The notes under the pieces were generated by a model. That model was given only the letters and a program-made list of their open reading frames with translations. It was not told the origin of the DNA and did not search any database. A stretch of 64,000 bases of DNA from Candidatus Epulonipiscium sp. (lineage in GTDB: Bacteria > Bacillota > Clostridia > Lachnospirales > Defluviitaleaceae), in contig JAAYQR010000027.1 of the NCBI GenBank assembly GCA_012519205.1, forward strand, positions 62,001 through 126,000, written 5' to 3'. This document shows positions 390-64,000 of the stretch, one piece after another (positions within the stretch are counted from its first letter, which is position 1; each line of letters begins with the position of its first letter). Both the position numbers and the translations under genes were made by a program.

Positions 390-1337
390 ATGGAGAGTAA
401 AAAGTTTTTTAAAAATCAGTACTATGTTATAGCAATTGCTATTTTTTGCTCAGTTTTATGGGGAAGTGCTTTTCCTGTTTTAAAGGTTAGTTATGAAGAA
501 ATCGGGCTAGGAGCAGATGATTTTTACGGTAAGATTGTATTTGCAGGAATGAGATTTTTTCTTGCAGCTATTTTTTTGTTTATTATTATTCAATGGGTAA
601 TTAAAATACCTCTTAAAGTGGATAAAAAGACGTTTTTTGAACTTTTTATTTTAGGGATGTTTCAAACAGCATTACAGTATTTCTTTTTTTATAATGGTCT
701 TGCCCATACCACAGGAATAAAAGGTTCAATATTGGGTTCTATAGGGACGTTTTTTGTTGTTTTATTTGCCCATTATATATACCAGGATGATAGAATGGAT
801 ATTAAAAAGGTTATAGGCCTTATAACAGGATTTGGGGGTATTATTATAGCTAATTTGGGTAAGGGCGGTGGACAAGCATTTACCCTATCCTTTTCTTTTG
901 TAGGAGAGGGATTTATGATTTTGTCAGGGCTTGTTAGTGCATGGGGTACTATTTTGGCTAAAAAACTAGCAAAAGATATTCACCCTTTTGTAGTAACAGG
1001 ATGGCAGATGTTTTTGGGGGCTATTGCAATGCTTTTGTTCGGAGTTACCGGTAGTAAATCTTGGATGGCCTTTTCATTTACCCCTAAGGCATGGATTTTA
1101 TTTATTTATTCCGCCTTATTATCGGCAGTAGCCTTTGCACTTTGGTACGGCTTATTAAAATATAATAAGGCAGGAGAAATAACATTATATCGTTTTATGA
1201 CCCCTGTATCTGGTAGTTTACTATCTGCCATTTTTATTCCAGGAGAAACTTTCACCGTAGGGCTACTTTGGGGAATTATTTTAGTATCTGTGGGATTTTT
1301 AGCCGTTAACGGGCGTAAAAATAACCTGAAAGTATAA
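390..1337 (+). CDS. EamA/DMT-superfamily transporter
   Basis: An inner-membrane carrier of the drug/metabolite transporter superfamily, usually an exporter of amino acids or other metabolites; the substrate cannot be read from sequence. The 315 residues show about ten hydrophobic segments arranged as two EamA repeats (about residues 13-155 and 172-308). The first helix begins with the family hallmark VLWGSAFPVLK, and the second repeat contains GLVSAWGTILAKKLAK. The length is typical. The start ATG is preceded by AGAAAGGAA about 12 bases upstream. It is monocistronic or lies at the head of a short unit; adenine deaminase follows after 70 bp. Confidence is high for the family and low for the substrate. 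Confidence 0.88.
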   Translation: MESKKFFKNQYYVIAIAIFCSVLWGSAFPVLKVSYEEIGLGADDFYGKIVFAGMRFFLAAIFLFIIIQWVIKIPLKVDKKTFFELFILGMFQTALQYFFFYNGLAHTTGIKGSILGSIGTFFVVLFAHYIYQDDRMDIKKVIGLITGFGGIIIANLGKGGGQAFTLSFSFVGEGFMILSGLVSAWGTILAKKLAKDIHPFVVTGWQMFLGAIAMLLFGVTGSKSWMAFSFTPKAWILFIYSALLSAVAFALWYGLLKYNKAGEITLYRFMTPVSGSLLSAIFIPGETFTVGLLWGIILVSVGFLAVNGRKNNLKV

Positions 1338-1407
1338 ATAGGAATAATATGAAGTAATTACCTATAATATTAAAGAAGACAATTTTTATGAGTTAAAGGA
1401 GTATTGT

Positions 1408-3108
1408 ATGGGATATAATAATTTTAAAAAGGCTTCTCAAATTGCCTTGGGAAAGGCTAAGGCAGATTTAGTATTAAAAAATGCCAACATAATCAATGTT
1501 TTTAGCGAAGAAATAATCAAAGGCGATATAGCTATAAATGGTGGAATAATCATTGGTATTGGTGAATACGAGGGAAAAACGGAACATAATTTGGGAGGAA
1601 AGTTCGTATGCCCAGGGTTTATTGACTCTCATTTGCACTTAGAATCTACCCTAGTCCCGCCGCCAATACTACTTCATAATGCTGTTTTGTTCGGAACGAC
1701 TACCTACATTGTAGACCCCCATGAATCTGTTAATGTAAGCGGTTTAGATGGACTCGATTATATATTAGAGCAAACTAAAGATGTTCCTGCTAATGTTTTT
1801 GTTATGATACCATCTTGTGTACCGGCAGCCCCTATGGAGGATAATGGGTATGAGTTCGGTGTAAATGAAATGAAAAGATACATTAATAACGAAAGAATAT
1901 TAGGGCTTGGGGAAGTTATGGATTATAATGCAGTAATAAATGCAGATATCTCCATGTTTGAAAAGCTCAACCTATTTAAAAATAAAATAATAGATGGCCA
2001 TGCACCTTTTTTAAATGATAAGCAATTGGCAGCATATACTTTAGCCGGAATAGTTACAGACCATGAATGCTGTGATTTTGAATATGCCATAAAAGAGTGC
2101 AGAAACGGAATGCAGGTACTTATTCGTGAAGGCTCAGCAGCCAAAAATCTTGAGGCTATCGTAAAAGGGATAATAAAAAATAATATAGATACAACATGTT
2201 TTTCCTTTTGCACAGATGATAAACATATCGAGGAAATCAAAAAGGAAGGACATATCAGTTACAACATAAAAAAATCCGTATCCCTGGGGTTAAATCCAAT
2301 ACAGGCAATAAAAATGGCAACCATCAATGCAGCCAGATGTTACAATCTAAAAAACCTAGGTGCAATTGCCCCAGGATATCAGGCAGACTTGGTTATTCTA
2401 AAAGATTTGGAAAATGTTGAAGTAGAGACGGTATATTATAAGGGAAGCATAGTAAACGATAAAACCCCTATAGTTATTCCAAAGCCCAAGGATAAGATTA
2501 AAACTACCGTTAATATAAAAGAAATCTCGGAAGAAATGTTAGAAATCAAAGTACGAAACAATCCTATATCTGTAATCAAAATGATAGAAGGACAAATTGT
2601 GACAAAGCATATAAAGGCAAATGTCCCCAACAGGAATGGTATTTTTATTACCAACGAGGAATTTAATAAGGCCTGTGTAATTGAAAGACATAAACAGACG
2701 GGGAAAGTAGGTCTTTCCATCGTCACAGGATTTGGAATAAGAGATGGAGCAATTGCCTCTAGTGTTTCCCACGATTCCCATAATATTATAGTGATTGGTG
2801 ATAATGATAAGGATATGATATTGGCAGTCAATGAGCTTATTAGAACACAAGGAGGGTATACAATCGTAGAAAAAGGTAAGGTACTTGAAACTTTGCCCCT
2901 ACCTATTATGGGATTAATCAGTGATTTGGAATTTGACGAGGTTTCTTTAAGAATTAGCAAGATGATTAGCCATGCCCACAGAATGGGAGTCCCCATGGAT
3001 ATGGAACCTTTTATAACTCTTTCATTTATAGCTTTACCCGTGATACCAGAAATACGTATAACCACCAATGGACTTATGGATGTTGTTAATAATAGGATAA
3101 TAAAATAA
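1408..3108 (+). CDS. ade: Adenine deaminase
   Basis: Hydrolyses adenine to hypoxanthine and ammonia in purine salvage; cytosolic, metal-dependent amidohydrolase. The 566-residue length fits the Ade family. The metal-binding HxH motif lies in CPGFIDSHLHLEST (about residues 68-81), followed by a segment with VDPHESVNVSG that carries a further conserved His, then the catalytic-domain motif FCTDDKH (about 270) and the C-terminal family block VTGFGIRDGAIASSVSHDSHN (about 447). The start ATG follows AAAGGAG. A DUF4250 gene follows 26 bp downstream and is probably cotranscribed. Long open frames on the opposite strand here are shadows of this gene. Confidence 0.95.
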   Translation: MGYNNFKKASQIALGKAKADLVLKNANIINVFSEEIIKGDIAINGGIIIGIGEYEGKTEHNLGGKFVCPGFIDSHLHLESTLVPPPILLHNAVLFGTTTYIVDPHESVNVSGLDGLDYILEQTKDVPANVFVMIPSCVPAAPMEDNGYEFGVNEMKRYINNERILGLGEVMDYNAVINADISMFEKLNLFKNKIIDGHAPFLNDKQLAAYTLAGIVTDHECCDFEYAIKECRNGMQVLIREGSAAKNLEAIVKGIIKNNIDTTCFSFCTDDKHIEEIKKEGHISYNIKKSVSLGLNPIQAIKMATINAARCYNLKNLGAIAPGYQADLVILKDLENVEVETVYYKGSIVNDKTPIVIPKPKDKIKTTVNIKEISEEMLEIKVRNNPISVIKMIEGQIVTKHIKANVPNRNGIFITNEEFNKACVIERHKQTGKVGLSIVTGFGIRDGAIASSVSHDSHNIIVIGDNDKDMILAVNELIRTQGGYTIVEKGKVLETLPLPIMGLISDLEFDEVSLRISKMISHAHRMGVPMDMEPFITLSFIALPVIPEIRITTNGLMDVVNNRIIK

Positions 3109-3134
3109 TAAATATACATACAAGGAGAATGACA

Positions 3135-3341
3135 GTGAAGAATGATTATGTACCCCTAAGCGATCCCTATATACTACTTAGTTGGTTAAATATGAAATTA
3201 AGGGATGAATGTAGGGATTTGAAAGAACTATGTGAAAGATACAATCTATCAGAAGTGGTGATAAAAGATAAAATAAAAGCCATAGATTATGTGTATAAAA
3301 AAAGTACAAATCAATTTATTACGTCTATAACGGAAGAATGA
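3135..3341 (+). CDS. DUF4250 domain-containing small protein
   Basis: A cytosolic protein of about 68 residues matching the DUF4250 pattern: PLSDPYILLSWLNMKLRDE near the start, then a short helix-turn-helix-like middle (LKELCERYNLSEVVIKDKI) and a final YVYKKSTNQF block. The function of the family is unknown. The GTG at 3135 is preferred because AAGGAG (3122-3127) is 7 bases from it; the in-frame ATG at 3129 would be only one base from that site. It sits directly behind ade and in front of a strong terminator, so it is probably the last gene of an ade operon. Confidence 0.75.
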   Translation: MKNDYVPLSDPYILLSWLNMKLRDECRDLKELCERYNLSEVVIKDKIKAIDYVYKKSTNQFITSITEE

Positions 3342-3354
3342 ATTAATACTTATT

Positions 3355-3386
3355 AAAAACAAGTGGAAATCTTACCACTTGTTTTT
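3355..3386 (+). terminator. Rho-independent terminator after ade-DUF4250
   Basis: A 12-bp perfect stem (AAAAACAAGTGG / CCACTTGTTTTT) with an 8-base loop, the right arm ending in a T tract. It closes the ade transcription unit. Confidence 0.85.
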
Positions 3387-3414
3387 AATTTTTAGGGTTA
3401 AGCCTTAAATTTTG

Positions 3415-3443
3415 TTGAATAAATATTCAATGTAGTGTATAAT
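3415..3443 (+). promoter_or_regulatory. Sigma-A promoter for argC
   Basis: TTGAAT at 3415-3420 and TATAAT at 3438-3443, separated by exactly 17 bases, 42 bp upstream of the argC start. There is no obvious ARG-box palindrome that can be asserted by eye. Confidence 0.75.
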
Positions 3444-3485
3444 TATTTAAAAAGTAACTAACTTTAAGTAATTGGAGGATGAATT

Positions 3486-4442
3486 ATGAAATATAAAGTG
3501 TTCGTAGATGGGCAGATGGGAACCACAGGGCTCCAAATTCATGAAAGATTGGAGAAACACCCAAATGTCGAGTTAATGATGATAGACCCCGAAAAGAAAA
3601 AAGACATAGAAGAAAAAAAGAAATACCTAAACAATGCCGATATAGTATTTTTATGTTTACCTGATGAGGCAGCAAGGCAATCAGCTAAACTAGTAACAAA
3701 CCCCAAAACAAAAATAATTGACCCCAGTGTAGGTCATAGAACCACGAAAGGCTGGACCTATGGAATGCCCGAATTAGTAAAAGGGCAAAGGGAAAAGATA
3801 GCTGCATCAAGCCGAGTAACAGTTCCGGGGTGCCATGCCTCAGCTTTTATATTGTCGGTTGCACCACTTATTAATATGAGGATTATGCCTAATGATTATC
3901 CTGTTACAGTTCATTCTCTTACAGGTTATAGTGGTGGTGGAAAAAACTTAATAGAAAAATATGAAAACAAAGAAGTTAACACCCCATATATAAAATCCCC
4001 AAGACCATACGCTCTAGGGCTTAGTCATAAGCATCTTCCCGAAATGAAAATGTATTCGGGACTTAAAAACGATCCGATTTTTCTTCCAATACTCAGCAAT
4101 TATTATAAAGGATTGGCTGTAACTATACCAATATATAATCATCTATTATCTAAGAAAATGACCAGTGCGGAAATAGCCTTAAGTTTAGCTGAATATTATG
4201 AGGAGGAAAGATTCGTCAAAGTTATGCCTTATCAGCCGATGGACTTACTATTTGATGGTGGCTTTGATGTTACAGCATGTAATGATACTAATAAATGTGA
4301 TATTTTCGTATTTGGAAATGATGAAAACGGAACTACCTTAATTCTTACAAGGCTAGATAACTTGGGCAAGGGGGCATCGGGAGCAGCGGTTCAGAATATG
4401 AATATAATTATGGGCATTGATGAGGATACAAGTTTAGAATAG
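3486..4442 (+). CDS. argC: N-acetyl-gamma-glutamyl-phosphate reductase, type 2
   Basis: NADPH-dependent reduction of N-acetylglutamyl-5-phosphate to the semialdehyde, the third step of arginine synthesis. The 318-residue length and the opening KVFVDGQMGTTGLQIHERL (nucleotide-binding loop) mark the shorter type 2 ArgC group rather than the common type 1 of about 345 residues. The catalytic cysteine lies in VPGCHASAF (about residue 117). An AATTGGAGGATGAATT ribosome site precedes the ATG. It stands alone between two terminators, with no other arg gene in the window, which is unusual because arginine genes are often clustered. Confidence 0.92.
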   Translation: MKYKVFVDGQMGTTGLQIHERLEKHPNVELMMIDPEKKKDIEEKKKYLNNADIVFLCLPDEAARQSAKLVTNPKTKIIDPSVGHRTTKGWTYGMPELVKGQREKIAASSRVTVPGCHASAFILSVAPLINMRIMPNDYPVTVHSLTGYSGGGKNLIEKYENKEVNTPYIKSPRPYALGLSHKHLPEMKMYSGLKNDPIFLPILSNYYKGLAVTIPIYNHLLSKKMTSAEIALSLAEYYEEERFVKVMPYQPMDLLFDGGFDVTACNDTNKCDIFVFGNDENGTTLILTRLDNLGKGASGAAVQNMNIIMGIDEDTSLE

Positions 4443-4527
4443 TATATAGTTTCGTGTGATATATATGTAGATTTATAGGTTATTTAAATGGATTATGTCC
4501 TTAGTGAATCCATATTTTCGAATAAAG

Positions 4528-4573
4528 AAAGGTCCCTTTCTAGGTATTGGCTTTACCAAGAAGGGACCTTTTA
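4528..4573. terminator. Bidirectional terminator between argC and the PRC-barrel gene
   Basis: A long hairpin with outer arms AAAGGTCCCTT / AAGGGACCTTT and inner pairing GGTA / TACC, followed by a T-rich run. It lies between two convergent genes and has A/T tracts on both sides, so it can serve both strands. Confidence 0.8.
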
Positions 4574-4587
4574 TTTTACTAAAGGTT

Positions 4588-6087
4588 CTATTTGCAGTTT
4601 AAGATAAGCTCAATTAGTTTTCCTTGGGATTTTGCATTTTCTATCATATCAGGGTCGATTAATGCTCCTAACTTAGCAATTATTACACCGCTATCACTAA
4701 CAATATCTTTTAAAATGACTTTTCCTGTTAGAAACTCTGTTTGTTTCTGCTCAAACTTATCATCAAATTTAATTTCTTTAAGCTGTATTTCATCAGACTG
4801 CGAATCATTGGATTCATTAGCTTTTAAATCCTTTAAAATTTCATCAATAAAATCTTGTTCTTTATTTTTTGACTTCGTATTAAACTCCTGATTTGAAAAA
4901 TTGTCTGTCTTATCAAAATCAAATAAGAAGCTACCGTAGTCATCTGATTCGTCGGCATCGTCATAAAAAGACATATCATCTTGTACTTCTTCTGTATGTG
5001 CGTTAACATCAGAATTCATAGGGTTGGAATCTAAAAAACTTTTTTCGTTTAAATCGTCTTCTTGATGTTCATTCATTGTAAGGTCATCTGCATCCATGTC
5101 ATAAAAAAAATTATTGTAATCTGAATCCTTATCGTTATTATCTTCGGTTATTTCTTCATCAATTTCTAATGAAGGAGCAGTCTCAGATTCTAATGAATAC
5201 ATTTCAAAATCTAATGCTTCTTGAAGTTCATTAATATCATCTATAGTAATATCCTCTTCTTCTGTTTGTAGGTTTTCCTCGTTATCTGTAAAATTGATTT
5301 CTTTGTTGTTGTTTTCTTCAATATCTTCTACAGGTTCTTCAAATTTTAGGTTACCATCAAATTGGAGTTGTTCATTATAAATAAAGGGTTCTTCTTCCTC
5401 TATTATTTCAGTTATTTCATCAATATTTGTGTTTATTTCATTTTCGGTGGAAGGTAATATTAATGAAGGTTCTTCTTGCAATGTTATGCCTTTTTCAGGA
5501 ACAATTTCTTGGGAAAACTCTTCATTGTTTATAATGGTTTCTTCTATAAGGCTAAAAAAAGAATTTTCAAACTCATTAATGAAATCATCGGGTGAATCAC
5601 AAAGATTTTGAATAGCTTCATCTTTAACGATAATTGTATTTTTACCAAAGATAACTACATATTTGCTTGGTATCATTTTAACTTCTTTAATACCGTTATT
5701 ATTCCTAATAAGTTCTAATGCAGTAACATATAATTTTTCTTGGTTTATATAAAAGCCACCAATCTTACCAAGATAATTTCCCTTATCGGTTAAAATTTCA
5801 GTATTAATCACCCTAATATTTTTTTGAAACAAATTAAGGGCTTTTTTGATGTCATTATTATCAAGCATTATATTATCATGTTTAACTATTATGGCATTAT
5901 CTCCTACCCTAATAACATCCTTTGTTTGCATAACCATTGTAGTTGCCACTTCATCTTTGGGTTCTACCACTAAATAATCTACCATTCCAGTTTGGGAGTT
6001 GAAAATATAATTATTTATTTTGCCTATGTATTCAGCAGTAGCCATACTGATAATGCGTAAACCAATAATCTCATTCATCTTTTTCAT
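4588..6087 (-). CDS. PRC-barrel protein with long acidic linker
   Basis: A 499-residue cytosolic protein of unknown role. Residues 1-80 (MNEIIGLRIISMATAEYIGK...) and about 90-165 (NTEILTDKGNYLGKIGGFYI...) each look like a PRC-barrel domain, a small beta-barrel found in RimM and photosynthetic reaction-centre H subunits. Residues about 200-430 are extremely rich in Glu/Asp/Asn and probably disordered. The last 50 residues form a conserved-looking module (GKVILKDIVSDSGVIIAKLG...AKSQGKLIEL). There is no signal peptide and no cysteines in the barrels. The start ATG follows AAAGGGG. The long acidic segment could mimic nucleic acid or act as a tether; that is inference only. Confidence 0.75.
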   Translation of the reverse strand: MKKMNEIIGLRIISMATAEYIGKINNYIFNSQTGMVDYLVVEPKDEVATTMVMQTKDVIRVGDNAIIVKHDNIMLDNNDIKKALNLFQKNIRVINTEILTDKGNYLGKIGGFYINQEKLYVTALELIRNNNGIKEVKMIPSKYVVIFGKNTIIVKDEAIQNLCDSPDDFINEFENSFFSLIEETIINNEEFSQEIVPEKGITLQEEPSLILPSTENEINTNIDEITEIIEEEEPFIYNEQLQFDGNLKFEEPVEDIEENNNKEINFTDNEENLQTEEEDITIDDINELQEALDFEMYSLESETAPSLEIDEEITEDNNDKDSDYNNFFYDMDADDLTMNEHQEDDLNEKSFLDSNPMNSDVNAHTEEVQDDMSFYDDADESDDYGSFLFDFDKTDNFSNQEFNTKSKNKEQDFIDEILKDLKANESNDSQSDEIQLKEIKFDDKFEQKQTEFLTGKVILKDIVSDSGVIIAKLGALIDPDMIENAKSQGKLIELILNCK

Positions 6088-6293
6088 AATATTACCCCTT
6101 TATTGTAAAATATACTTATATACATTTTAACTATATTTTGAATATATTTCAACAAGATTCAATACTTTCTAATAAGGAATTGATAAAATTTTAGTAAATA
6201 TCCTTGTTTTAACACATATAATGTAAAAAAGAGGATGAATATTTTACTAATAAGTTGGAAAATATTTAAGAGCCGATTTATATACTACCATTT

Positions 6294-6573
6294 AATAAGG
6301 AACTTTTCTCAGCTTATCTGTATCTAGATTTTGCAAATTATTACATAGGAAGGTTTAGATGGATTTGCAAACTGGTTTATGATACAGGCACAAGAGGAAA
6401 GGGAATATGCCATTTTGTTTATACAGTATATGCAAAATAATAACCTAAAAGTTATCTTTGAGTCAATAGATAAGCCTGATAAAAAATATGATAGTTGTAA
6501 AGCTCCAGTGTTAGAGAGTTTAGAACATGAACAGTATATTACAAGTTCTATTAATGATATTTATACCAATTAG
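6294..6573 (+). pseudogene. Ferritin remnant (truncated at both ends and frameshifted)
   Basis: Two frames together encode the central part of a bacterial ferritin. The first (6294-6350) reads NKELFSAYLYLDFANYYIGR. The second, displaced by two missing bases near 6346-6352, reads GLDGFANWFMIQAQEEREYA and continues to SLEHEQYITSSINDIY, stopping at 6573. These are ferritin helix A/B and C segments, including the di-iron site region (AQEERE) and EHE. The first helix, the start codon and the C-terminal third are missing, so the gene is dead. Read alone, the second part (6379-6573) looks like a 64-residue ORF, but it has no ribosome site. Confidence 0.85.
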
Positions 6574-6689
6574 CATTAACTATTCTTGATTAAGCAAATG
6601 TCTTTCAAAAAGAAGGTGCCATTTGAATTATTGCATAAATCCCATAGCTATAGTATTATGGAATAAAAGTAATATGAGTGGGTGATTTT

Positions 6690-7985
6690 ATGAATATTAA
6701 AGATATGGCAGTACAAGCAAAGCAGGCATCAATCAAATTAGCAATAGCAGATACAGAACTTAAAAATAAAGCATTAAATAAAATAGCTCAAGCCCTAAGG
6801 GAAAGAAAAGGTGAAATAATAAAGGCAAATGAACAAGATTTATACAATAGTGAAAAGGATAATCTTGCCCTGCCTCTTTTAAAAAGGTTGAAATTTGATG
6901 AAGCAAAGATTGAAGATGTAATACAAGGGATTGAAAGTTTGATCAGACTTGAGGATCCTGTTAATGTAACTCAGGCAGCTACTCAGCTAGATGATGGACT
7001 TGAGTTATATCGTATTAGCTGTCCTATAGGGGTAATTGGCATTATATTTGAATCAAGACCAGATGCATTGGTTCAAATTTCAACCCTCTGCTTAAAAAGC
7101 GGAAATGCAGCTCTCCTTAAAGGAGGTAGCGAAGCAAATAATACCAACAGGATTTTAACTGATATTATTAAAGAAGCTACAAAAGAAGCGGGTATTATTC
7201 CCGGCTGGATTCAACTTCTCGAAACTAGGGATGACGTAAATGAAATGCTTAAGATGGACAGACATATAGATTTGATTATTCCAAGGGGATCTAATGAATT
7301 TGTAAGATACATTATAGATAACTCGAGGATTCCCGTTTTAGGTCATGCAGATGGAATCTGCCATTGTTATGTGGATCAATTTGCTGATATTAATAAAGCC
7401 CTTAATATTGTAGTTGACTCTAAGACACAGTATGTTGCCGTATGTAATGCCACAGAAACTTTATTGGTTCACGAAAATATCGCGGAAGTGTTTCTACCAA
7501 AGCTAAAAGAAGAACTATATAAAAGGGAAGTTGAGCTGGTAGGATGTAAAAAAACAAGAAGTATTATAGACGTAGGTGTAGCTTCAGAAGAAGACTGGAA
7601 AACAGAATATCTAGATTATAAACTTTCAATCAAAATTATATCCAGTATAGAAGAAGCTATTGATCATATTAATCAATATGGTTCCGGACACACGGAGACA
7701 ATTATAACAGAGGACAAACAAAATGCCTCGATGTTTATGAATCTTGTAGATTCAGGCAATGTTTTTTTAAATTGTTCTACTAGATTTAGTGATGGATTTA
7801 GATATGGCTTTGGGGCAGAGGTAGGAATTAGCACAAATAAAATTCACGCAAGAGGACCAGTTGGTTTAGATGGACTTTTAATTTATAAGTATAAGCTTAT
7901 AGGAAATGGTCATGTCGTATCAGATTATGTTGACAAGACAAAAACTTTTAAACATAAAAAATTAAATAAAAAATTTAATGAATAA
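6690..7985 (+). CDS. proA: Glutamate-5-semialdehyde dehydrogenase (gamma-glutamyl phosphate reductase)
   Basis: NADPH-dependent reduction of gamma-glutamyl phosphate in proline synthesis; cytosolic ALDH-fold enzyme. The 431 residues include the family block PIGVIGIIFESRPDALVQI, the nucleotide region LLKGGSEANNTNR, the catalytic cysteine in AVCNATETLLVH (Cys252) and the C-terminal ARGPVGLDGL. A GTG at 6678 is in frame, but the ATG at 6690 is chosen because GTGGGTGAT lies directly upstream of it and MNIKDMAVQAKQAS aligns with known N-termini. proB is not adjacent. An isochorismatase-fold gene follows 16 bp downstream and is probably cotranscribed. Confidence 0.95.
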   Translation: MNIKDMAVQAKQASIKLAIADTELKNKALNKIAQALRERKGEIIKANEQDLYNSEKDNLALPLLKRLKFDEAKIEDVIQGIESLIRLEDPVNVTQAATQLDDGLELYRISCPIGVIGIIFESRPDALVQISTLCLKSGNAALLKGGSEANNTNRILTDIIKEATKEAGIIPGWIQLLETRDDVNEMLKMDRHIDLIIPRGSNEFVRYIIDNSRIPVLGHADGICHCYVDQFADINKALNIVVDSKTQYVAVCNATETLLVHENIAEVFLPKLKEELYKREVELVGCKKTRSIIDVGVASEEDWKTEYLDYKLSIKIISSIEEAIDHINQYGSGHTETIITEDKQNASMFMNLVDSGNVFLNCSTRFSDGFRYGFGAEVGISTNKIHARGPVGLDGLLIYKYKLIGNGHVVSDYVDKTKTFKHKKLNKKFNE

Positions 7986-59188: not shown

Positions 59189-59245
59189 CAAAAAAGAGGC
59201 AACCTTAGATGGTTAGTCTTAGGGATTTTATATCCTAGAAAAATA

Positions 59246-59287
59246 TCGGCATAGTTTGGTAGTATTACCGGCTATGTCGATTTTTCT
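59246..59287 (+). terminator. Terminator after YkuS gene
   Basis: Outer stem TCGGCATAG / CTATGTCGA with inner GGTA / TACC, followed by T5-C. Strong intrinsic terminator. Confidence 0.8.
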
Positions 59288-59460
59288 TGTTCTGTGGTGG
59301 ACATAGAAACCGCTGGCTCTACCTCCCGTCCTTACTATGCCCAGTCTGGGTATAGTAAAGAGGTCTTTTTGTTTGAGATGGCTTATTCGAGATTCTCCCT
59401 GATAAAAGCGATATTCTCCTCGGATAGCACTGTGATTATTTTTAAGTGGCTAAAATCCTC
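59288..59460. other. Structured non-coding stretch before the exporter module
   Basis: No gene is visible between the YkuS stop and the marR start (338 bp). Besides the terminator there is a second hairpin ACTATGCCCA-GTC-TGGGTATAGT (59334-59356) followed by AAAGAGGTCTTTTTG, and base use is richer in C and G than in the genes to the left. It marks the edge of the compositionally different exporter region; it may be a remnant of whatever brought it in. Confidence 0.4.
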
Positions 59461-59503
59461 TTGACACTTTTACCTAACAGTATTACAATACTAATTGTGT
59501 TAG
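59461..59503 (+). promoter_or_regulatory. marR promoter with palindromic operator
   Basis: TTGACA (59461-59466) and TACAAT (59484-59489), spacer 17. A 30-bp imperfect palindrome with ends CTAACA and TGTTAG and centre TATTACAATA (59474-59503) covers the -10. The same palindrome recurs before the exporter genes at 60004-60032, so it is very probably the MarR binding site (autoregulation). Confidence 0.75.
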
Positions 59504-59526
59504 CACTTCCGAAAGAAGGTGAAGAA

Positions 59527-59964
59527 GTGGACTACGAAGAATTGGCAAGACAGTTTCTGCATAACTCATATCAATACCGAAGCCGCGGTCATCAGAAGAG
59601 ATTTGATGATAATATGCATGGTGAAACTTTTGCAATGTTATATATTTATAGGCAAGGTGGAACAGTGTTACCAAGCGATATTAGTAACGAGATGAATATC
59701 AGTTCCGCCCGTGTTGCTGCCATGCTTAATAATCTTGAAAACAAAGGATTAATTACTCGGGAGATTGATAAAAGCGATCGAAGGAGAATTTTGGTAGAAC
59801 TCACTCAAGATGGAATAGAGTTTACAAAAGATCGTAATAAAACGGTAGTCAATTACACAGTAAGAATCCTCAAATTATTAGGTGAACATGATGCCAAAGA
59901 ACTCGTAAGGATTGTCGGAAGGCTTTCCGAATTAGGTCCTGAGATTGTAAATAATAAACAATAA
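59527..59964 (+). CDS. MarR-family transcriptional regulator
   Basis: A 145-residue winged helix-turn-helix repressor: LYIYRQGGTVLPSDISNEMN, ISSARVAAMLNNLENKGLIT (recognition helix) and the wing REIDKSDRRRILVELTQDG. The frame is open from 59446, but the promoter -10 at 59484 excludes that start; GTG 59527 with AAGGTG a few bases upstream is used. It leads a module with a two-gene ABC exporter and probably represses it, relieved by a drug or metabolite. Confidence 0.88.
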   Translation: MDYEELARQFLHNSYQYRSRGHQKRFDDNMHGETFAMLYIYRQGGTVLPSDISNEMNISSARVAAMLNNLENKGLITREIDKSDRRRILVELTQDGIEFTKDRNKTVVNYTVRILKLLGEHDAKELVRIVGRLSELGPEIVNNKQ

Positions 59965-60003
59965 TGCAGTCGTAAATAGCGGCTGCAAAAAAATTACATG
60001 TAG

Positions 60004-60032
60004 CTAACACTATTACAATATTATGGTGTTAG
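60004..60032 (+). promoter_or_regulatory. Second MarR-type operator, upstream of the exporter genes
   Basis: Palindrome with ends CTAACAC and GTGTTAG around TATTACAATA, nearly identical to the site over the marR promoter. A promoter within it (TACAAT or TATTAT) is possible but its -35 is unclear. Confidence 0.7.
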
Positions 60033-60067: not shown

Positions 60068-61828
60068 ATGGTTAAGATTTTTAAATATCTAAAAGCAAAG
60101 GAATGGCGCCAAGTTATTATAAGCCTTATCTTTATAGTGGCACAGGTTTGGCTTGATTTAAAATTGCCTGATTACATGTCTACAATTACCCGGTTAGTTC
60201 AAACGCCGGGGAGTGCAATGAGTGAAATTTGGAAGCAAGGCGGATTTATGCTTCTTTGTGCCTTTGGAAGCGTTGCGTCGGCCATTATAGTAGGTTTTTT
60301 TGCTGCACGCATTGCGGCTTCATTTTCACAAAGACTTCGTAGTATGCTATTTTCCAAGGTGGATTCATTCTCAACAAATGAAATTAATCAGTTTTCCACG
60401 GCCAGTCTAATTACTCGTTCCACCAACGATATCACGCAAATACAGTTGATTATTACAATGGGGCTTCAGATGATAATAAAAGCACCTATTATGGCAGTAT
60501 GGGCACTTTCAAAAATTGCAGGAAAGGGTGTTGAATGGTCAATTGCAACGGGTATATCGGTATTACTATTGGTTGTAGCTACTACCTTAATAATGATTTT
60601 TGTTATGCCTAAATTCCGTAAAATGCAGACTTTGACTGACAACCTGAATAAAATAACTCGGGAAAATCTAACCGGACTTAGGGTTGTACGTGCTTATAAT
60701 GCTGAGAGCTATCAGGAAGAAAAGTTTGAAAAGGCTAATAAAGAGTTAACACAAACTCATCTTTTTACCAGCCGTGGCATGGCAATCGTAATGCCTATGA
60801 TGAACATGGTAATGAGTGGAATTACCTTAGCTATATATTGGATTGGTGCGAACCTAATTAACAATGCTGTTGCTATGGATAAGCTGGCCATATTTTCAAA
60901 TATGGTCGTGTTCTCAGCCTATGCAATGCAAGTCATCATGTCGTTTATGATGTTTGCGATGATGTTTATATTGCTGCCAAGAGCATCCGTATCTGCTAAA
61001 CGTATTAATGAAGTGCTGGACACCGTGCCATCTATTATTGATGGGACAGAACACAGTGGTAAACCGGGGATTGTTGGGGAGGTTGAGTTCAAAAATGTAA
61101 GCTTCAAATATCCTGGAGCCGCTGACTATGTTTTGAAGGATATTAGTTTTACAGTAAAGCAAGGAGAAACCATTGCTTTTATTGGTTCGACTGGTAGTGG
61201 CAAAAGTACGCTTATCAACCTCGTGCCACGCTTCTATGATACAACTGAAGGCGAAGTATTGGTTGACGGTGTGAATGTGAAGGATTATGTGGGTGAGTCT
61301 TTATATAATAAAATCGGCTATGTTCCGCAAAAGTCAGTTTTGTTTAAGGGGACAGTAAATTCTAATGTAAATTACGGAGAAAACGGAAAAGATGCTGCAA
61401 CTGAAGACGAAATAAAAAAAGCTGTTTCTGTTGCACAAGGCACAGATTTCGTTGAATCTATGAACATGCAGTATGAAGCGGATATCTCTCAAGGCGGACT
61501 TAATCTATCTGGCGGTCAAAAACAGAGAATCGCCATAGCCCGTGCTGTGTGCCGCAAACCAGAAATCTATATCTTTGACGATAGTTTTTCGGCACTGGAT
61601 TATAGAACAGACCGCATACTGCGTAGTGCTCTTAAAGAAGAGACAGCAGGTGTTACAAGTATGATTGTTGCACAGCGAATTGGAACAATCATGGATGCTG
61701 ACCAAATCATTGTTCTTAACGATGGTGTGATGGTTGGCAAAGGCACGCATAAGGAATTGCTGTCATCGTGCAAAGTATATAAAGAGATTGCGCTATCACA
61801 GCTTAGCGAGGAGGAACTTGTGTCATGA
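60068..61828 (+). CDS. ABC exporter subunit 1 (multidrug type)
   Basis: 586 residues: a six-helix transmembrane domain (about 1-310) fused to an ATPase domain. Walker A GSTGSGKST, signature LSGGQKQR and Walker B IYIFDDSFSALD, where Asp replaces the usual catalytic Glu. That substitution marks the non-catalytic site of heterodimeric exporters such as TM287/288, LmrCD and BmrCD. ATG 60068 (VKIFKYLKAKEWRQ) is chosen; the longer frame from 60023 starts inside the operator. Its stop overlaps the next gene by 4 bases. Confidence 0.92.
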   Translation: MVKIFKYLKAKEWRQVIISLIFIVAQVWLDLKLPDYMSTITRLVQTPGSAMSEIWKQGGFMLLCAFGSVASAIIVGFFAARIAASFSQRLRSMLFSKVDSFSTNEINQFSTASLITRSTNDITQIQLIITMGLQMIIKAPIMAVWALSKIAGKGVEWSIATGISVLLLVVATTLIMIFVMPKFRKMQTLTDNLNKITRENLTGLRVVRAYNAESYQEEKFEKANKELTQTHLFTSRGMAIVMPMMNMVMSGITLAIYWIGANLINNAVAMDKLAIFSNMVVFSAYAMQVIMSFMMFAMMFILLPRASVSAKRINEVLDTVPSIIDGTEHSGKPGIVGEVEFKNVSFKYPGAADYVLKDISFTVKQGETIAFIGSTGSGKSTLINLVPRFYDTTEGEVLVDGVNVKDYVGESLYNKIGYVPQKSVLFKGTVNSNVNYGENGKDAATEDEIKKAVSVAQGTDFVESMNMQYEADISQGGLNLSGGQKQRIAIARAVCRKPEIYIFDDSFSALDYRTDRILRSALKEETAGVTSMIVAQRIGTIMDADQIIVLNDGVMVGKGTHKELLSSCKVYKEIALSQLSEEELVS

Positions 61829-63672
61829 GTGAAAATACAATGAAAAGACCATCACCTATGGGTGGAGGTCGCAGAATGGGCGGCCCAGTTGAAAAGCCAA
61901 AAAACTTCAAAGCGACTTGGGCTAAGTTAATTGAATACTCTAAATCCTATGTACTGGTAATTATTATTGCACTAATATTAGCTGCCATAGGCACTGTGCT
62001 AATGATTATAGGCCCGGAAAAGCTTAAGGATATGACAAATGAAATTGCAAAAGGTCTTCCTGCTCTAATTAATGGGAAACCCATACTTGGAAGTATTGAC
62101 ATGGATGCCATCACTAATCTCGCTTGGATGCTGGTTATCTTTTATGCTGGTTCTGCTTTGTTGGGTTTTGCTCAAAGCTTTATTATGGCGACTGTTACAC
62201 AGAGAATATCTAAAACCATGCGTACTGATATCTCCCAGAAAATAAATCGACTGCCTCTTCGGTATTTTGATAAAACCAGTTATGGAGATGTGCTAAGCCG
62301 CGTTACGAACGATGTCGATGCAATAGGACAAACTATGAATCAAAGTATCGGAACGCTTGTTACAGCGATAACTACATTCGTTGGTGCTTTGATTATGATG
62401 TTCTACAACAGCTGGATTCTTGCACTAACTTCTGTTGGGGCAAGCTTGATTGGATTTGTTCTCATGATACTGATAATGAAGAAATCACAAGGGTATTTTG
62501 TGTCCCAGCAAAAAAACCTCGGAAATATTAATGGTCATATCGAGGAAATTTACTCCGGACATAACGTGGTAAAGGCATATAACGGCGGACGAGAATCAAA
62601 GCAAACCTTTGAAAAAATAAATGAAAAGCTATATAGCAGTGCATGGAAGTCGCAATTTTTGTCAGGAATGATGATGCCTTTAATGCAGTTTGTCGGTAAC
62701 TTCGGATATGTTGCTGTTTGCGTGCTTGGTGCTGCCCTTGCTATGAATGGCACTATATCTTTCGGCGTGATTGTTGCTTTTATGCTGTATGTCCGCTTAT
62801 TTACACAACCTCTCTCTCAAATGGCACAAGCTGCAAACAATCTGCAAAGAGCCGCGGCTGCTGGAGAAAGAGTATTTGAATTTCTTGATGAAGAAGAACT
62901 TGAGAATGAGAGTCAAAAGATCAAGGCTTTACGAGATATAAAAGGAGATGTTGAATTTAAGAATATTAAATTTGGATATATCCCTGAAAAGACAATTATC
63001 CACGATTTCTCCGCAAAGATAAGACCGGGGCAAAAGGTAGCTATTGTGGGTCCGACGGGTGCGGGTAAAACAACGATAGTGAATCTGCTAATGCGGTTCT
63101 ATGAATTGGATGATGGTGAAATCTTGCTTGATGGGACGCCTATCAGTCAAGTGACAAGGGAAAATGTCCATGATCAGTTTTGTATGGTTTTGCAGTACTC
63201 ATGGCTTTTCGAAGGTACAATTAAGGAAAACATCATTTTCAGCAAACAAGGTGTAACAGATAAACAGGTTGTTGATGCCTGTAAGACCGCTGGATTGCAT
63301 CACTTTATCCAAACCCTACCGAATGCTTATGAAACCATTTTAAACGATAAAGTCAGCCTGTCCGAAGGACAAAAACAACTTATTACTATTGCTCGCGCTA
63401 TGATTCAAGATGCGCCATTACTAATTCTTGATGAAGCGACAAGCTCTGTAGATACACGAACCGAGCGTATCGTACAGGCAGCAATGGACAAGTTGACAGT
63501 CGGCAGGACTTCATTTGTTATAGCACATAGGCTTTCTACAATTAAGAATGCTGATGTGATTCTAGTAATGAAGGATGGTGACATTATCGAAAGTGGCAGT
63601 CATAACGTATTACTTGAAAAGAACGGTTTCTATGCGGAGCTGTATAATAGTCAGTTTGAAACAGTTGCATAG
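61825..63672 (+). CDS. ABC exporter subunit 2 (multidrug type)
   Basis: 615 residues: a Pro/Gly/Arg-rich cytosolic start (RPSPMGGGRRMGG), six-helix membrane domain, and ATPase domain with Walker A GPTGAGKTT, Walker B LLILDEATSSVD (with catalytic Glu) and a deviating signature LSEGQKQL. It is the catalytically competent partner of subunit 1; the pair should form one asymmetric drug exporter. The ATGA overlap with the upstream gene indicates co-translation. Substrate unknown. Confidence 0.93.
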   Translation: MSENTMKRPSPMGGGRRMGGPVEKPKNFKATWAKLIEYSKSYVLVIIIALILAAIGTVLMIIGPEKLKDMTNEIAKGLPALINGKPILGSIDMDAITNLAWMLVIFYAGSALLGFAQSFIMATVTQRISKTMRTDISQKINRLPLRYFDKTSYGDVLSRVTNDVDAIGQTMNQSIGTLVTAITTFVGALIMMFYNSWILALTSVGASLIGFVLMILIMKKSQGYFVSQQKNLGNINGHIEEIYSGHNVVKAYNGGRESKQTFEKINEKLYSSAWKSQFLSGMMMPLMQFVGNFGYVAVCVLGAALAMNGTISFGVIVAFMLYVRLFTQPLSQMAQAANNLQRAAAAGERVFEFLDEEELENESQKIKALRDIKGDVEFKNIKFGYIPEKTIIHDFSAKIRPGQKVAIVGPTGAGKTTIVNLLMRFYELDDGEILLDGTPISQVTRENVHDQFCMVLQYSWLFEGTIKENIIFSKQGVTDKQVVDACKTAGLHHFIQTLPNAYETILNDKVSLSEGQKQLITIARAMIQDAPLLILDEATSSVDTRTERIVQAAMDKLTVGRTSFVIAHRLSTIKNADVILVMKDGDIIESGSHNVLLEKNGFYAELYNSQFETVA

Positions 63673-63789: not shown

Positions 63790-64000
63790 ATGCAAGGAAT
63801 TATTGAGCTATTATTTGACATTGCGTATCTTTCCACTGTAATCATTATGGGAATTATAATGATAAAAAACAGTAACGACAACAAGCAATATAAGCTATTT
63901 GGAATTATGGCAGTAACCTTAGGAGTAGGCGATGCTTTTCATCTTGTACCCAGAGCATTAGCGCTTAATACAACGGGGCTTGAAAACTTCACCAGTGCGT
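63790..64000 (+). CDS. Multi-pass membrane protein, N-terminal part (cut by window edge)
   Basis: 70 residues visible before the window ends. Two hydrophobic segments (LLFDIAYLSTVIIMGIIMI and LFGIMAVTLGVGDAFHLVP) are separated by KNSNDNKQYK. AAAAGGAGAATTATC precedes the ATG. Similar proteins of unknown function accompany MarR/ABC exporter clusters in clostridia (from memory, not verified). Probably part of the same transcription unit, 117 bp after subunit 2. Confidence 0.7.
   Translation, partial: MQGIIELLFDIAYLSTVIIMGIIMIKNSNDNKQYKLFGIMAVTLGVGDAFHLVPRALALNTTGLENFTSA

Follow-up and report, generated by a model that had tools for sequence, protein, structure and literature searches.

Three MarR-family circuits are among the described systems closest to the locus analysed here. 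In Staphylococcus aureus, MepR recognises a GTTAG signature, the mepR site being located just 3' of the -10 element, and the regulator gene and the pump gene of the mepRA system each possess their own site (PMC3617543, PMC8044140). In Streptococcus agalactiae, the MarR regulator PefR, which is heme-responsive and for which a second locus (pefAB) exists, is followed by two ABC exporter subunits (PefCD), and an inverted repeat containing the -10 element is present in two copies before pefRCD (PMC2858704). In Streptococcus suis, the MarR repressor SatR, whose direct binding to DNA was demonstrated by EMSA, is encoded in one operon with the two-subunit ABC exporter SatAB, satR and satA overlapping each other (PMC9241815).

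The circuit described here is of this known kind, its module being a familiar and ordinary example. It is located near the end of the window, i.e. the whole stretch of 64,000 nt that was analysed, and the elements concerned are (all on the + strand):

59461..59489, marR promoter, with -35 TTGACA (59461-59466), a 17-nt spacer and -10 TACAAT (59484-59489)
59474-59503, site 1, CTAACAGTATTACAATACTAATTGTGTTAG, 30 nt, spanning the marR -10
59527..59964, marR, a MepR-like MarR-family winged-helix regulator of 145 aa with a GTG start, the start being aligned with those of relatives
60004-60032, site 2, CTAACACTATTACAATATTATGGTGTTAG, 29 nt, in the marR-abc1 gap, 5' of the ABC genes
60068..61828, abc1, exporter subunit (TMD+NBD), ATG start at 60068
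61825..63672, abc2, exporter subunit with a canonical Walker B (LDEATSSVD)
63790..64000, gene 4, a membrane protein of 225 aa that continues beyond the window (L044 6791-7468)

It is highly probable that marR and the two abc genes constitute a horizontally acquired, self-regulated exporter operon under the control of MarR with 13-bp operators of the GTTAG type. Judged from the DNA, it is through the two matched sites that a repressor of the MarR type very probably controls both the gene encoding it and a drug-pump-like exporter acquired from a relative.

The marR product contains the domain that defines the family (MarR_2 PF12802 with 42 bits against a cut-off of 27, E 1e-10; PF01047 with 39.8 bits against a cut-off of 24.6) and is accompanied by a predicted GTTAG-type operator at its own promoter; its top match among PDB sequences is MepR, a distant one of 37 bits. 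The half-site and the position known for MepR agree with the site pattern observed here, and the two systems are also alike in providing the regulator gene and the pump gene with a site each, whereas MepA is a MATE pump and the exporter here is of the ABC type. The gene order and the repeat over the -10 are those of pefRCD, but the PefR operator (a 23-nt sequence, TAAAATAGTTCTCACGATAACTA) differs from both sites, neither of which is of the PefR type (PMC2858704). In the case of satRAB, the overlap of satR and satA contrasts with a 103-nt gap which here carries a predicted operator, and the available part of that report describes no second operator, whereas the window contains site 2 (PMC9241815).

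With regard to the exporter, the abc1 and abc2 ORFs overlap by 4 nt and each encodes PF00664 together with PF00005, and are hence tandem half-transporters; the listed ORF start of the first (60023) falls within site 2, homology placing the abc1 start at 60068. The abc1 product carries a degenerate Walker B (FDDSFSALD) without the catalytic Glu and a Gln at the position of the H-loop His (VAQRIG), and the abc2 product carries a normal H-loop (IAHRLS) and a degenerate signature (LSEGQ). A pattern with one degenerate site is that of heterodimeric exporters of the TM287/288 type, and TM287/288 itself (3qf4) is a close PDB match of both subunits, with one degenerate ATP site in common. By its sequence, the abc1-abc2 pair is such a heterodimeric exporter, one of its ATP sites being degenerate. 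With regard to drug or heme export, the 25 NCBIfam matches listed per subunit include no curated model at or above its cut-off.

A first-pass annotation of this DNA had assigned MarR, two ABC subunits and a membrane protein to the module, an assignment which is supported for the first three components and not for the last. Gene 4 is separated from abc2 by a gap, neither marR nor ABC genes were found in the ~1.5-kb flanks of any of the seven gene 4 relatives fetched, and no gene 4 match was present among the 27 loci of marR relatives; gene 4 was accordingly rejected as a pump partner for want of neighbourhood support. Its protein matches no Pfam family, shows a weak likeness to the MASE3 sensor kinase model NF047874 (E 9e-5) and yielded no relative in a scan of viral contigs, and it has a patchy distribution in the class, being present in 13 of 148 genomes (its own included).

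The marR promoter, TTGACA-17-TACAAT, is the top promoter-like site in the stretch (11 of 12 matches). TACAAT is also present within site 2, for which a -35 was sought at 16-18 nt and none was recognisable. The first-pass annotation had reported near-identical 30-bp palindromes with the ends CTAACA/TGTTAG and the centre TATTACAATA, one on the marR -10 and one before the ABC genes; ends and centre are indeed read at both sites and the coordinates bear out both positions, and the length applies to site 1, site 2 being one base shorter. Its argument that the match is too long to be due to chance is also confirmed, as local alignment of the marR leader with the abc1 leader scored 45 against a maximum of 30 in 2000 dinucleotide shuffles, which rules out a chance match; the likeness extends from the sites into the Shine-Dalgarno (ribosome-binding) region. 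The 20-mer pattern CTAACANTATTACAATANTA has two exact matches in the window (three matches when three mismatches are allowed, against a shuffle mean of 0.34) and the same number in the 2.13-Mb genome, where no match with one mismatch occurs and the next best has two.

As whole palindromes, both sites are imperfect (11/15 pairs in site 1 and 11/14 in site 2). Reading of the DNA 5' of marR relatives retrieved a shorter near-palindrome, CTAAY-NNN-RTTAG, located mostly right after the -10, and in most related bacterial loci the promoter layout ahead of this 13-mer is the same as here. The predicted operator unit is this 13-bp sequence, repeated in tandem at 16-17 bp, so that each of the two sites, real as matched sites, would represent two tandem operators rather than the single 30-bp palindrome originally described:

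59474..59486, + strand, O1a CTAACAGTATTAC, predicted operator overlapping the spacer and the -10
59491..59503, + strand, O1b CTAATTGTGTTAG, predicted operator directly 3' of the -10, 17 bp from O1a
60004..60016, + strand, O2a CTAACACTATTAC, predicted operator in the marR-abc1 gap
60020..60032, + strand, O2b ATTATGGTGTTAG, degenerate second predicted operator, 16 bp from O2a

The 13-mers of the window are imperfect, with 4/6 pairs each and 2/6 for O2b, and O1b occupies an equal position in relatives. A second half-site in the tandem register was found upstream of marR in 9 of the 20 loci with a strict core (TAAY at -16 or -17) and in 7 of the 13 marR-abc1 gaps with a core (RTTA at 16 bp), the window being included in both sets, and half-sites at any other single distance were few. 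This recurrence in relatives indicates that the outer CTAACA/TGTTAG ends are real and recurrent; the simplest reading is that they represent the outer halves of two adjacent dimer sites.

The base set of loci consisted of 27 marR relatives obtained by a protein scan of species genomes. The 13-mer core is present 5' of marR in 25/28 loci, window included (shuffle mean 1.24, maximum 5), this count being made after removal of L074 (no upstream sequence), L084 (a marR fragment, also omitted from the gap count) and L085 (23% identity), and with contigs that appear under two names (L045 and L061, L046 and L071, L055 and L080) counted once. Between marR and abc1 the core occurs in 13/23 gaps (shuffle 0.80, maximum 4), the other 10 being without it. 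Eight further class- or order-level loci, outside the 28-locus count, carry the core in seven cases, i.e. six clear palindromes (L048-L052 and L058) and a doubtful one (L054), L053 having none. Before more distant MarR genes the core is at background level in an order-wide search (4/25 against 1.5 in shuffles) and little above it among phylum-wide matches (5/25 against 1.3), from which it follows that this type of site is the property of one MarR clade. The operator also precedes marR in members of the clade without ABC genes, and is absent from three more distant MarR/ABC modules (Paenibacillus, Niallia and Collinsella).

Across genera, conservation of the site type and of its position goes together with the MarR clade, and sites 1 and 2 therefore very probably serve as operators for the MarR encoded next to them, which would bind to both. 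The regulator-site prediction is thereby much stronger with the relatives than from the window alone, and the search in other genera that had been proposed did recover MarR relatives with the same type of site. A literature search for MarR/ABC operators of such sequence in Clostridia retrieved no paper. Among plasmid-borne relatives (MarR 27-36% identical, ABC up to 64%), three loci are without this operator type, and a Paenibacillus polymyxa plasmid (L165; ABC 64% identical) carries a different near-palindrome, TATCTTACAGTATAAGATA, at the promoter of its MarR gene, which suggests that operator and regulator changed together there.

One further element was recognised between marR and site 2:

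59965..59987, + strand, stem-loop directly after the marR stop, with a 9-bp stem, the loop AAATA and an A-tract behind it

A GC-rich stem-loop (as defined by one filter) is located before the second operator in 8/20 loci (the window, L059, L060, L062, L063, L070, L071 and L079), with compensatory changes in the stem, and is succeeded by an A-tract in three of these loci (the window, L059 and L060); this hairpin may determine how much abc transcript is made relative to marR transcript. Its recurrence, together with the predicted folding of site 2 RNA into a hairpin, would fit an explanation in which the near-palindromes function at the level of RNA or DNA structure, as an attenuator, a terminator or a mobile repeat, instead of as protein operators. 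We nevertheless regard this as very improbable, considering that site 1 lies on the -10 and the start region and would hardly be transcribed, that no terminator-like site was found at site 1, that Rfam returned no family at gathering score, and that conservation tracks the MarR clade and not the exporter, the site persisting in relatives that lack the ABC genes. A mobile repeat was rejected on the ground that the genome (2.13 Mb) holds two copies only, and an RNA family or tRNA insertion site was likewise dismissed, there being no gathering-level Rfam match and no tRNA nearby.

A different matter is whether both operator sites are functional. It is possible, if rather doubtful, that only site 1 is, in which case site 2 would be a copy of the marR promoter leader in decay and the ABC genes would simply be cotranscribed with marR in the manner of satRAB, which is described as a single operon with a single promoter (PMC9241815). 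The continuation of the leader likeness into the Shine-Dalgarno region, the absence of a -35 at site 2 and its degenerate second half (2/6 pairs) are in keeping with such an origin. However, the equivalent gap of relatives in other genera (L059, L060 and L078) carries CTAACACTATTAG, the counterpart of O2a, and these cores, together with the 16-bp register of half-sites in 7/13 gaps, make site 2 look maintained. As a maintained operator, site 2 may act against transcription arriving from the marR promoter or against a weak internal start.

Under the operator interpretation of both sites, a MarR dimer would bind to each 13-bp CTAAY-NNN-RTTAG operator. Two such dimers would probably occupy the marR promoter abreast, ~1.5 helical turns apart, one over the spacer and -10 and one over the start region, and would block RNA polymerase; the weaker tandem site before abc1 would add a further obstacle, probably hindering either transcription that reads through or initiation at a weak internal start. 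Release of MarR, and with it derepression of marR and of the heterodimeric ABC exporter, would be brought about by a small toxic molecule that is probably a pump substrate as well. The matched sites provide a precise and testable regulator-site pair for a MarR clade that is spread over several phyla, and the simple consensus with its spacing rule lends itself to regulon prediction for exporters, which in gut or digester microbes may blunt drugs or host compounds.

The first-pass annotation had also put forward that the module uses more G/C-rich codons than its surroundings, suggesting acquisition by transfer. Computation of GC content and codon usage bore this out for abc1 and abc2, with GC values of 0.400 and 0.401 and GC3 values of 0.362 and 0.358; the baseline consisted of 269 ORFs located on 384 kb of the genome (mean GC 0.344, GC3 0.279 +/- 0.034). 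The codon usage of both genes fits the genome more poorly than that of any baseline ORF, and marR (GC3 0.310) and gene 4 (GC3 0.329) deviate only mildly. None of the seven other genomes of the family contains a close marR relative (best E 7e-10), and in the abc1 tree the gene groups with that of Anaerocolumna aminovalerica (100/99) and then with Herbinix (99/97). Identity to A. aminovalerica amounts to 85-86% for the ABC proteins (85% for abc1) and 71% for MarR, as compared with 70% for CshA and 42% for ProA. Transfer into this genome, with Lachnospiraceae as the likely source or as a shared recipient, is therefore well supported, in accordance with the earlier suggestion. Codon selection acting in membrane proteins could in principle produce a shift in composition, and the mildly atypical marR and gene 4 are compatible with it, but the explanation is scarcely credible in view of a codon fit below all compared ORFs, the missing close marR relatives, the unequal identities to A. 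aminovalerica, and the arrangement in three family genomes (G001, G002 and G004), in which the S1-domain gene is followed, ~30-70 nt on, by the gene that here lies past the module, the module itself being absent. ParE was dropped as a yardstick of transfer, its matches in three genomes being 32-36% identical and possibly paralogues.

In G006 and, as judged from translations inspected by eye, in G005, a sugar-use cluster occupies the corresponding gap; in G003 this gap measures ~11 kb, and in G007 the contig ends too early at the junction. The junction between S1/UPF0180 and the RNase T-YkuD-parE block (59189-59460 to L044 7520) is a variable site, which is empty in three family genomes, occupied by the sugar-use cluster in two and by the exporter here. 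That cluster comprises a PfkB kinase, an amylase-like gene and LacI, with more genes in G005 by visual reading. A remnant ORF (59294-59464) gave no protein match in plasmids or phages and no DNA match in plasmids, and a genome search with its DNA returned no second copy.

An archaeal label is attached to five of the 27 loci (L064, L066, L067, L068 and L082); these are metagenome bins, for which reason the archaeal reading is a lead. Bins with the MarR-ABC-ABC module are assigned to Bathycorpusculum, Nitrososphaerota and Methanomassiliicoccaceae and take at least two places in the abc1 tree. L068 and L082 possess a bacterial-looking TTGACA/TAAAAT and no 13-mer core before marR. In L066 and L067 (module at 2828-7032 and 543-4667, respectively) the operator adjoins TTTATATAATGG, which we take to resemble an archaeal TATA box, and no good -35 is present. 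Tentatively, marR, its GTTAG operators and the exporter might form one portable cassette that has reached gut archaea, the core promoter having been replaced in L066 and L067, where the operator abuts the TATA-box-like TTTATATA, and the repressor-operator pair having been kept; a literature search, judged by title, retrieved no paper on transfer of a MarR-ABC module to archaea. In L066, the genes immediately 5' of the module encode an EMC3/TMCO1-like protein and a CMP kinase of archaeal type (93.9 bits, slightly short of its cut-off of 102.1), and these archaeal-type neighbours argue against simple misbinning at that locus.
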